DNA from: Gemmataceae bacterium
GTDB taxonomy: Bacteria; Planctomycetota; Planctomycetia; Gemmatales; Gemmataceae
Assembly (NCBI GenBank): GCA_009692005.1
Contig: SHZZ01000021.1
Span: 1-55,467 of the forward strand
DNA length: 55,467 nt
Direction: 5' to 3'
The position numbers and the translations under genes are program-made. Under the pieces are notes generated by a model that was given only the letters and a program-made list of their open reading frames with translations, did no database searches and was not told where the DNA came from. Of the stretch, positions 26,000 to 30,130 are shown piece after piece (positions within the stretch are counted from its first letter, which is position 1; each line of letters starts with the position of its first letter).

Positions 26000-26323
26000 T
26001 TACTGAATCACCCGGGTGACCTGGTATCTGCTGCCCGCTTTCGCTGATACCACCTTCTTCAACTCTTCCAGGTTGAATTTTTCCTTGTCTTGAACGGCGA
26101 AGCGAACCGTTTCCTTGTCGCGAAGGCCAACGATGGAATTCGGCACCACCCAGGGAATTTGCACAAGTGCGGACCGCACTTTTTCGGGGCAGCTAAATCA
26201 GGTCATTCCCTTCACTTCCACGGTAAATCTTGGCAGGGCCGGGTCGGCCTTGTCCTCACCCGGGCCAGGACAGCCGAGGATCAAGGGCAGGGCCAGCGCC
26301 AAACCGAGAATTGCGTTTCGCAT
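26000..26323 (-). CDS. HMA-domain lipoprotein with in-frame TGA at the metal-site cysteine (candidate selenoprotein)
   Basis: Read through one TGA, this is a 107-residue protein. A perfect AAAGGAG lies six bases before the ATG at 26323. MRNAILGLALALPLILGC is a lipoprotein signal with lipobox Cys18. After a short linker the heavy-metal-associated fold follows: RFTVEVKGMT, then TGA at codon 42 (26198-26200), then FSCPEKVRSALVQIPWV, then a second beta-alpha-beta half ending YQVTRVIQ before TAA. HMA domains have GMTCxxC, so the TGA replaces the first metal-binding Cys while Cys45 remains. The frame is otherwise intact on both sides. Selenocysteine is supported by the hairpin just downstream. A Cys (TGC/TGT) to TGA mutation, making a pseudogene, is the alternative. 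It is convergent with the sulfatase. Confidence 0.7.
26165..26181 (-). promoter_or_regulatory. Candidate bacterial SECIS hairpin
   Basis: On the minus strand AAGTGCG-GTC-CGCACTT forms a perfect 7-bp stem with a three-base loop. The loop's first base is G. It is the 24th base after the TGA at 26198-26200, inside the 16-37 nt window generally described for bacterial SECIS apical loops, and a G in the first loop positions is the described sequence requirement. The hairpin lies within coding sequence, as bacterial SECIS elements do. Confidence 0.5.
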
Positions 26324-27318: not shown

Positions 27319-29136
27319 ATGAAGAGGACGAGATTCATAGCGCCGTTGCTGGCCGTGGTTGCCGCCTTGATGGCAGGGCAAACAGCCTCCGCCGCGCATG
27401 GAGGCGCGGTGAAGTACAACGCCACCGGCAAGCCGTGCTGCGAGGCGCAGAGCTGCTTTTCCGCCGCCGCCGGGCAAATGCGGGAAAATTTCCGCCTGGT
27501 GTTCGACAATGTCCTCGGGAAACGCTGGCTGACTTCCTACGCCACCGTGCAAGAAACGGTCATGAAGCAGGTCAGCAAAACCTGCTACAAGGAAGAATCC
27601 CGCACCTGCTACCGCAAGTGCTATGAAACCACTTACAAGAATGTGGAAGAAAAGGTCCAAAGGAATGTTGTCGAGACCGCTTACAAAGATTGCGAATACA
27701 CCGTGTGCAAGCCGGTCAAAAAGACTTCCCTGAAGGAAGTGACCCAGACGGTTTGCAAGCCGGTGTGCGAAACCCATTACAAAGAATGCAAATACACCAT
27801 TTGCAAGCGGGTTCCCGTGCAGTGCGAAAAAGAAATCTGCTTTACGGTGTGCAAGCCAGTGACCGAAGTCCATTGCCACAAAGTCACTTGCCAGGTGCAG
27901 AAGAAAATCTGCGAACAGCACGAAAAGGAATGCAAGTACACGGTGTGCAAGCGGGTGTGCGAAACGCACTACAAGGATGTAAAGTGCGTCAAGCATAACC
28001 GAGTGATAGAGAATTGCGTCAAGGATGTGAAGTGCGTGGAATATAAGACGGTGCAAGAAACCTGCGAGAAGGAAATCGTCAAGACGGTATGGAGGCCTGT
28101 GGAAACGACGAAGACCGTGACCCGCCGGGTGCCTGAATGGGTGGTGGAAAAGTACACTGTGCCGGCCACGACCCGGCACCAGTGGGTGCGCACCGCCGGC
28201 GATTGCAGCTTCGATCCTTGCACTTGCCGCAATGTTTTCAAACCGGGCAAGCTGACCCGTGTGTGCGTGGAAGTGCCGGCCCGCGAATGCTGCCGCAAGG
28301 TCTTCCGCATCAAAACCGTGTGCGAACAGGTCGCCTGCAAATCCTATGTCAAGGAATGCGTGAAGGAAAAGGTTACCGTCACCGTGTGCAAAAAAGTCCC
28401 TGTCTGCACCGTGAAGAAGGTTCCTTACACGGTCTGCAAGATCGTGCCGGAAACCATCATCAAGAAGGTTCCCTACACCGTGACCCGCATGGTGCCGGAA
28501 ACCGTGGTCAAGAAAATCCCCTACACGGTGACCCGCGTGGTCCGCGGCGCCTATATCGATGGCAAAGGCGCCAGCCATGGCCAGGCCGGGTTCGACAAGG
28601 CGGAAATCATCAAGACTGCTTTGCGGGCGGGGGAAGCCCAGGGCAACGCCTGGACCTTTAAAGAAGGCGCCACCTTTGTAAACACCTACACCACCTCGAC
28701 CACCAAAATGGTGAAGGAAACCCAGGTCCGCAAGGTCCCCTACACCGTGTACAAAACGGTGACCGAGGAAGGTGTGCGCCAGGTGCCCTATACCGTCACC
28801 AAGATGGTTCCCCATACGGTGAAAAAGATGGTCCCCGTGACTGTCACCGAGATGGAAACCCACAAGTGCGTGAAGAAAGTCCCCTACAAGGTTTGCAAAA
28901 CGGAAACGGTCACGGTTTGCAAGCGGGTGCCTGAAACTATCTGCAAGATGGTTCCCTACACGGTGAAGGTGAAAGTTCCCTATACCGTGACGGAAACCGT
29001 CCCGGTAACGATCTGCAAACGGGTTGCGGTTTGCGATTCCTCCAAGGAAAGATGGCTGGATAAGATTTTCCGCAATCGGCTGTGCTGCACCGCCCCCTGC
29101 GCCCCCTCGACTTCCGAAGCCAAACCGGCCAAGTAA
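27319..29136 (+). CDS. Exported cysteine-rich YTV-repeat protein
   Basis: A 605-residue secreted protein with signal TRFIAPLLAVVAALMAGQTASA. The body is built of short imperfect repeats in two styles. Residues of about 80-260 are C-K-rich, with units such as CETHYKECKYTICKRVPV. The later part contains the planctomycete YTV signature, for example three successive units of 16 residues around KKVPYTVTRMVPETVV near residues 365-405. I count about 46 cysteines, so the mature protein is probably heavily disulfide-linked. YTV proteins are known from planctomycete cell-wall preparations, so an envelope structural role is likely. A non-repetitive insert (GAYIDGKGASHGQAGFDKAE) splits the YTV region. 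A strong terminator follows. Confidence 0.9.
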   Translation: MKRTRFIAPLLAVVAALMAGQTASAAHGGAVKYNATGKPCCEAQSCFSAAAGQMRENFRLVFDNVLGKRWLTSYATVQETVMKQVSKTCYKEESRTCYRKCYETTYKNVEEKVQRNVVETAYKDCEYTVCKPVKKTSLKEVTQTVCKPVCETHYKECKYTICKRVPVQCEKEICFTVCKPVTEVHCHKVTCQVQKKICEQHEKECKYTVCKRVCETHYKDVKCVKHNRVIENCVKDVKCVEYKTVQETCEKEIVKTVWRPVETTKTVTRRVPEWVVEKYTVPATTRHQWVRTAGDCSFDPCTCRNVFKPGKLTRVCVEVPARECCRKVFRIKTVCEQVACKSYVKECVKEKVTVTVCKKVPVCTVKKVPYTVCKIVPETIIKKVPYTVTRMVPETVVKKIPYTVTRVVRGAYIDGKGASHGQAGFDKAEIIKTALRAGEAQGNAWTFKEGATFVNTYTTSTTKMVKETQVRKVPYTVYKTVTEEGVRQVPYTVTKMVPHTVKKMVPVTVTEMETHKCVKKVPYKVCKTETVTVCKRVPETICKMVPYTVKVKVPYTVTETVPVTICKRVAVCDSSKERWLDKIFRNRLCCTAPCAPSTSEAKPAK

Positions 29137-29195: not shown

Positions 29196-29243
29196 AACCC
29201 CCTCACCAGGCCATTAACAGCGCCTTGAAACTCTTAAAGCCAC

Positions 29244-29597
29244 TCAAAGGATCCGTGGTTGAATAAGAACCTCAAACCCAGCCACAATCTCTTGCATCCG
29301 TTTTTTTGAAAGCTGCCCGATTTTCTCCCGAAGTTCCCCTTTATCCACGGTCATCACTTGCGAAATATTCACCACACTCGGTTTTGTCAGATTGCCCTCA
29401 CCCTTGTGAAGCGCCACATTTCCCGGCGCTAAAGCTAGCTTTCTGTTGGAGGTCAGGGCGCAGACAACGGTGGTTTTGATTTGGCTTTTGTTGAAGGCAT
29501 CGTTTTGAATGACCACAAAGGGATGCAGGGAACCCGGTTCAGACCCGGCGGGTTCCCCCAGGTCGAGCCAAAAGAGGTCGCCTTGATTGATCACCAT
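29244..29597 (-). CDS. MazF/PemK-type toxin (mRNA endoribonuclease)
   Basis: A 117-residue toxin. INQGDLFWLDLGEP with LHPFVVIQNDAFN is the conserved N-terminal beta structure of PemK/MazF, and TTVVCALTSN followed by KPSVVNISQVMTVDK carries the later conserved strand and T/S-x-x-S region. Such toxins cut mRNA at short sequences, and the antitoxin blocks the active site. The ATG overlaps the antitoxin stop by 7 bases (ATGGTGA), so the two are translated together. Confidence 0.93.
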   Translation of the reverse strand: MVINQGDLFWLDLGEPAGSEPGSLHPFVVIQNDAFNKSQIKTTVVCALTSNRKLALAPGNVALHKGEGNLTKPSVVNISQVMTVDKGELREKIGQLSKKRMQEIVAGFEVLIQPRIL

Positions 29598-29845
29598 TTG
29601 CCAGCGATCCGCCGCATTCTTTTCTTGGCGGCCTGGGCTATTTCCTGGGCCTTGGGCTCGCCCACCTCGTGATCATAAACCTGGTTCAGCTTCTGAACGA
29701 TTTCCAAAGACTCACTACGGTGAATCAAGAATTCCAATGCCTGGGCAAAAACCTGGCTGCGGGAAATGCCAAGGTTCGCCGAGAGCTTCTCGGCTTTTTG
29801 AAAGAGCTTTTCCTCAATGGAGATGGCAGTTTTCTTGTAGGCCAT
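29591..29845 (-). CDS. Ribbon-helix-helix antitoxin of the MazF-type pair
   Basis: An 84-residue antitoxin. MAYKKTAISIEEKLFQKAEKL gives the ribbon strand, and ANLGISRSQVFAQALEFLI the helix-turn-helix of a dimeric RHH DNA-binding domain. The charged C-terminal tail ending KRMRRIAGKW would bind the toxin. I chose the ATG at 29845, after AAGGGGC; the frame is open 37 codons further upstream, but that segment crosses the promoter/operator and does not look like protein. Antitoxin-first order with overlap is typical. Confidence 0.88.
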   Translation of the reverse strand: MAYKKTAISIEEKLFQKAEKLSANLGISRSQVFAQALEFLIHRSESLEIVQKLNQVYDHEVGEPKAQEIAQAAKKRMRRIAGKW

Positions 29846-29864
29846 GGAGCCCCTTCTGGTAATA

Positions 29865-29903
29865 GTTATACCTTTAGTATAACAAGGTTGCGCGGACAGT
29901 AAA
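29865..29903 (-). promoter_or_regulatory. Promoter and operator of the toxin-antitoxin operon
   Basis: A perfect inverted repeat GTTATAC-N5-GTATAAC (29865-29883) overlaps a -10 box TATACT (29876-29881). A -35 box TTTACT (29898-29903) lies 16 bases upstream. The palindrome covers the -10 region, which is where an RHH antitoxin would bind to repress its own operon. Confidence 0.75.
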
Positions 29904-30130
29904 AGGTAATTCTTTCCAGCAAAGGGCCCTGACTGGTTGCCGCCGCGATCGTGCAATAGGATCCTGGAACGAGGCTGATCGTTTATGCTTTGACAACCAT
30001 CCCGAGCTGCCTGACTGTTTGACCGAGACTTGATCCGAGCGGCTCACCAGCAGATCACTCGTGAGTGGTGGGCGTGACGGGTTCGACCTCGTCTCGGCTT
30101 GTCGTAAAGGAGCGCCAGGAGAGCGACCCT

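Follow-up and report, generated by a model that had tools for sequence, protein, structure and literature searches.

Proteins that carry selenocysteine (Sec) in an HMA domain are known in principle. The NCBIfam family NF041115 (UxxU_metal_bind, metal-binding (seleno)protein), which is among the best curated matches to the protein group described here, likewise consists of a small HMA domain whose metal loop contains Sec. NF041115, with its UxxU motif, has been listed together with a UxxC E1-E2 cation-transporting P-type ATPase (PMC13188914). The ATPase resembles our protein in having UxxC at the metal-binding motif, presumably within an HMA domain, but there the domain is part of a large membrane pump, whereas the present protein appears to be a free lipoprotein. 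A MerP selenoprotein was listed from Global Ocean Sampling data with two sequences (PMC2398784); these are MerP-type HMA domains with Sec, as here, but they are isolated metagenomic matches, for which the portion of that report dealing with them lists neither motif nor host. NF045683 (MerT/CopZ fusion-like heavy metal transport selenoprotein) also bears Sec and has an HMA-like segment. Sec machinery is already known in planctomycetes, including Gemmata obscuriglobus (PMC4807772), and no planctomycete HMA selenoprotein was found described in the open-licence literature that we searched.

The gene studied here lies in a window of 55,467 nt (the whole stretch of DNA that was analysed), from a Gemmataceae genome of 4.19 Mb with a completeness of 100. 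It is read on the minus strand, a detail absent from an earlier note on this DNA; a plus-strand reading of the same positions yields no HMA domain and was rejected. The features of the gene, and one of its neighbours, are as follows.

26000..26323, minus strand (read 26323 to 26000): predicted Sec-HMA lipoprotein gene, 107 codons plus TAA, translated with TGA as U
26323 and 26002-26000, minus strand: start codon ATG and stop codon TAA
26330..26336, minus strand: ribosome-binding site AAAGGAG, 6 nt before the ATG
26270..26323, minus strand: predicted signal peptide and lipobox ending LILG-C18, from a 22-sequence alignment
26198..26200 (26200-26198), minus strand: in-frame TGA, codon 42, almost certainly read as Sec; relatives also have TGA in this column
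26189..26191, minus strand: TGC, codon 45, the putative second metal ligand (Cys of UxxC), from the translation
26008..26230, minus strand: HMA domain, residues 32-105, beta-alpha-beta-beta-alpha-beta, from Pfam, AlphaFold and Foldseek
26165..26181, minus strand: candidate SECIS hairpin AAGUGC-GGUCC-GCACUU, coding for K-V-R-S-A-L and fitting the published model
27319-29136, plus strand: YTV-repeat protein rich in Cys (five stretches matching Pfam YTV), lying upstream of the Sec gene and divergent from it

The 107-residue product, with the TGA as U, begins MRNAILGLALALPLILGCPGPGEDKADPALPRFTVEVKGMTUFSCPEKVRSALVQIPWVV, and its metal loop reads KGMT-U42-FS-C45-P. Translation, alignment and predicted fold all confirm what the earlier note had described, namely a lipoprotein signal, a ribosome site and an HMA fold with a single in-frame TGA at the first metal-binding Cys; the second Cys and the natural stop are intact, as it had said. 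In the 22-sequence alignment C18 is invariant and G17 is kept in at least 90%, and a hydrophobic signal precedes the Cys, as is characteristic of bacterial lipoproteins. It is very probable on this pattern that the protein, once exported, is held in the cell envelope by a lipid anchor at Cys18; it may also be exposed at the cell surface, as the earlier note had inferred. With Cys placed at position 42, the Pfam HMA model (PF00403) aligns with residues 34-94 (E 5.3e-5, 24.0 bits; gathering cut-off 24.8). The AlphaFold model, computed with 22 relatives, has pLDDT >90 over the HMA domain and reproduces the HMA order of strands and helices, with the metal loop after strand 1. Foldseek gives MerP (1osd) and CopZ (6ff2) as the best PDB matches of the predicted fold.

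Judged by profile scores, no curated family captures this planctomycete group. Against NF041115, the window protein reaches 21.8 bits and the best group member tested 58, where the cut-off is 95; unlike NF041115, the group has an N-terminal lipobox, with UxxC in the window clade and UxxxU or UxxxC elsewhere. The MerP model TIGR02052 gives 24 bits against a cut-off of 92.55, and no mer operon is present at the window gene. The match to NF045683, which is a membrane MerT fusion, is weak as well, at 13.3 bits against 375 for one relative and up to 48.7 for another.

A family search returned matches in 47 of the 95 genomes of the host's family, most of them with TGA at the same codon. The earlier note had proposed to compare this codon among close relatives, and the result is TGA, rather than TGC or TGT, both in the four genomes of genus g36 that hold the closest relatives (65-74% identity, all UxxC) and in many more distant ones; the TGA is kept at identities of roughly 31-74%. 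When all loci were read, 121 distinct HMA matches were obtained, 79 of the Sec type (TGA at the first ligand) and 42 of the Cys type, from genomes that are mostly drafts and include many MAGs. The Sec-type motifs take the forms UxxC, UxxU (UASUP, UATUP), UxxxC and UxxxU, and the position of codon 45 is Cys in the UxxC relatives and Sec in the UxxU relatives. Cys forms in the family are few (L036 and L041; L027, L038 and L126 of a membrane-anchored type). The locus thus has the pattern sought in an in-frame-TGA selenoprotein, with Cys in some homologues and TGA kept in others.

Several of the relatives are identical in sequence to Gemmataceae records (Fimbriiglobus, Gemmata sp. and Gemmataceae MAGs), and Sec forms extend well beyond the host's family, occurring in planctomycetes from the sea and from groundwater. 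A tree built from the 43 best-scoring rows places the window gene among 11 UxxC genes that form a supported clade (99/99), and at least two independent changes are required to explain the three Cys forms included in the tree. Within a single genus outside the family, the codon is TGT in L056 and TGA in the near-identical L150 and L152, and the hairpin is intact in all three, which by comparison of the sequences is a recent Sec/Cys switch. Taken with its relatives, the window protein very likely belongs to a planctomycete-wide Sec-HMA group that also includes UxxU, UxxxC, UxxxU and, less often, Cys forms.

Some planctomycete loci hold more than one such domain. In L033, L085, L106, L054 and L154 the first Sec-HMA gene is adjoined by another, whose motif (LT/V-U-xx-U-P) is preceded by about 8 additional residues; such a gene also adjoins a Cys-type HMA gene in L050. 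Single frames in L068 and L151 apparently contain two consecutive Sec-HMA domains, each with its own TGA. L046 and L140 show three tandem HMA lipoprotein genes with the motifs UGAAC, UASC and CEAC, a mixed Sec/Cys cluster that lies near genes resembling, by eye, 2-oxoacid:ferredoxin oxidoreductase subunits. A UxxU partner gene was not found in the host genome, where the sole match is a Cys-type HMA on contig C57.

The window gene is solitary, flanked on both sides by unrelated genes. It converges on a sulfatase-like gene (assigned by eye), and PPC-domain and YTV-repeat genes are its other neighbours. On the minus strand at 29244-29956 there is a MazF/PemK-like toxin frame, and a small frame upstream of it resembles a ribbon-helix-helix antitoxin (by eye). 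No conserved operon context was found among the relatives compared: those of g36 have other neighbours, and the g30 relative shares the PPC-domain gene only. Since the neighbourhoods differ in this way, synteny gives no mechanism and names no metal.

Compared with Cys, Sec has a lower pKa and a higher affinity for soft metals. Judging from the HMA fold and from where the two ligands sit, we lean slightly toward binding of a soft metal at the envelope, by a scavenger or chaperone that would be MerP/CopZ-like. The small, ferredoxin-like domain would present the metal loop GMT-Sec-x-x-Cys, and the selenol-thiol pair would bind tightly to a soft metal, for example Cu(I), Hg(II), Cd(II) or Zn(II). 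A less likely but serious alternative is that the same selenoprotein acts in redox chemistry rather than metal transport, its Sec-Cys pair making and breaking a selenylsulfide bond, as an envelope thiol/selenol oxidoreductase or repair partner built on an HMA scaffold. Known Sec is mostly catalytic in redox reactions, and UxxC and UxxU resemble redox motifs, but the UxxxU spacing is unlike that of thioredoxin motifs, and HMA domains have no known oxidoreductase function. UxxU or UxxxU HMA domains are fused to a C-terminal thioredoxin-like domain in L050, whose C-terminus is DsbD-like, and in L062 and L154, and in L095 the same frame contains, further upstream, a stretch that looks thioredoxin-like by eye (without a Pfam match). 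At the window gene, however, no thioredoxin domain or partner is seen, and metal transport genes adjoin some relatives, with ZIP and ArsP-type permease genes next to L079 and a cation efflux gene next to L095. The second UxxU HMA genes and the UxxU HMA-thioredoxin-like fusions of some planctomycetes are the reason that a redox role stays open beside the soft-metal role that we prefer.

Whichever role applies, the gene is almost certainly a selenoprotein gene, in which the stop codon at position 42 encodes Sec at the metal-binding site. The earlier note had proposed a Sec-containing protein and suggested a search for selA, selB, selC and selD, and all four are present in the host genome, so that the Sec machinery expected behind a bacterial selenoprotein is complete. 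The tRNA-Sec is found on contig C72 (65.3 bits, Rfam), where ARAGORN agrees with the anticodon tca; selB is on C84 (360 bits) with selA adjoining it (554 bits), and selD is on C47 (351 bits), all of them scoring above cut-off. selD itself carries an in-frame TGA (SCAG-U-AGKLPP). Directly upstream of selD lies, on the minus strand, a small SelW-like gene (MKVELRYCSK-U-NYEPQ..., locus L044, host G000:C47) with an in-frame TGA. Across the host's family, selB scores above cut-off in 81 of 95 genomes.

That the TGA instead stands for Trp or Cys, through a change of code or leaky read-through, would account for full-length frames being kept past it, but we regard this as very improbable. TGA is the stop of 16 of the 36 large ORFs in the window and is therefore a normal stop elsewhere; homologues have Cys, not Trp, at the aligned site; and the genome has a complete Sec machinery, with a SECIS-type hairpin following the codon.

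The hairpin that follows the TGA is of the bacterial type, adding to the support that the sel genes and the conserved TGA give the Sec reading. The published bacterial SECIS model (bSECIS) calls for a small loop with G followed by G or U, a stem of 4-16 bp and a distance of 16-37 nt from the UGA (PMC13188914). The window hairpin fits in loop, stem and spacing: its stem is perfect, and 22 nt separate the UGA from the loop, which begins 25 nt from the first UGA base. SelB and tRNA-Sec, guided by this hairpin 22 nt downstream, would decode the UGA of codon 42 as Sec. The clade of the window gene (class A) keeps the hairpin with the loops GGUCC, GGUCU, GGUCG or AGUCU, and like loops follow TGAs elsewhere in the host genome, in selD (GGUUC) and in the SelW-like gene (AGUCU, 24 nt from the TGA). 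Among the 1431 TGA triplets on both strands of the window, only 2 places have a hairpin of at least 6 bp with an NGUNN loop 18-40 nt downstream, so that the combination in the Sec-HMA gene is far from chance. The other place, near 29205 on the minus strand, is a terminator-like inverted repeat of 12 perfectly paired bp, with the loop GGUUA, just beyond the end of the YTV gene. Over all loci, an NGUNN hairpin of at least 5 bp follows 65 of the 79 Sec loci and 2 of the 42 Cys loci, by a simple rule under which 14 of the 79 Sec-type loci lack such a hairpin. Comparison of the sequences thus supports the putative decoding signal as well as the lipobox and the HMA fold. The least probable reading of all is that of a pseudogene or assembly error, in which a TGC became TGA by mutation or misreading and the protein truly ends at 41 residues; this is what a lone TGA in a draft assembly most often means when considered by itself, but as we read the conservation it is already refuted, with the same TGA in dozens of separate assemblies, coding kept downstream and a specific hairpin that is mostly missing where the codon is Cys.

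A second hairpin layout is found in other members of the group (class B). Here a near-invariant hairpin, CUCUACCGUGGGUAGAG, is present in 39 relatives, 43-46 nt after the first UGA. In the form CUCUACC-GUG-GGUAGAG it encodes (x)LPWVE, its GU loop lies 43 or 46 nt downstream of the first UGA, and it stands behind another hairpin (hairpin 1) at the class A position. Unlike the window hairpin, it falls outside the bSECIS consensus (PMC13188914), and its spacing exceeds the 16-37 nt of that model. Among the 39 relatives, pair 1-17 changes from C-G to G-C three times, pair 3-15 from C-G to U-A three times, and the A-U of pair 5-13 becomes G-C once and G-U three times; the outermost pair is lost in three sequences and the loop-closing pair in four. 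The changes thus appear to be mostly compensatory. Codon choice is also unusual, the Leu codon being CTA in 33 of 39 (6.2% usage in the same loci) and the Val codon GTA in 37 of 39 (10% usage). Measured against synonymous recodings, hairpin 1 shows unusual stability in both classes, and the second hairpin does so in class B only, although the sequences are related, the codon model is rough, the combined p-values are inexact and the class B list holds a few misfiled loci.

When the 17-nt class B hairpin was scanned over 84,980 genomes, 45 matches were obtained, 24 of them in planctomycetes, and all 24 are Sec-HMA genes with the TGA 40 or 43 nt upstream of the hairpin. The 21 remaining matches (Clostridia, Flavobacteriales and others) have no HMA gene and were taken as chance or unrelated. 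We infer that the far hairpin would be the SelB site in class B, with hairpin 1 taking up the extra distance. More broadly, planctomycetes may carry a second SECIS layout, a proposal that we hold to be evenly balanced: a GU-loop hairpin 43-46 nt after the first UGA, with the gap folded by the first hairpin, would act as one element for either a single UGA or a pair of them spaced by three or four codons (UxxU, UxxxU). The SECIS would then have moved between the near and the far hairpin within the family, the window gene using the near one, and such elements would be used phylum-wide for an expanded Sec-HMA set that includes sites with two Sec.

We agree with the earlier note that an automated pipeline would end this protein at 41 residues, as standard gene finders stop at the TGA of codon 42, and a group of envelope metal proteins is therefore probably missing from planctomycete annotations. 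To our knowledge, few cases have been documented in which Sec serves to bind a metal and not to catalyse redox reactions. A free HMA domain, about 75 residues long and with natural UxxC, UxxU and CxxC forms, would allow this use of Sec to be tested directly. Throughout the planctomycete phylum, dozens of relatives likewise appear to use Sec, many of them with two, and two SECIS positions within one gene family would constitute a natural experiment on the reach of SelB.
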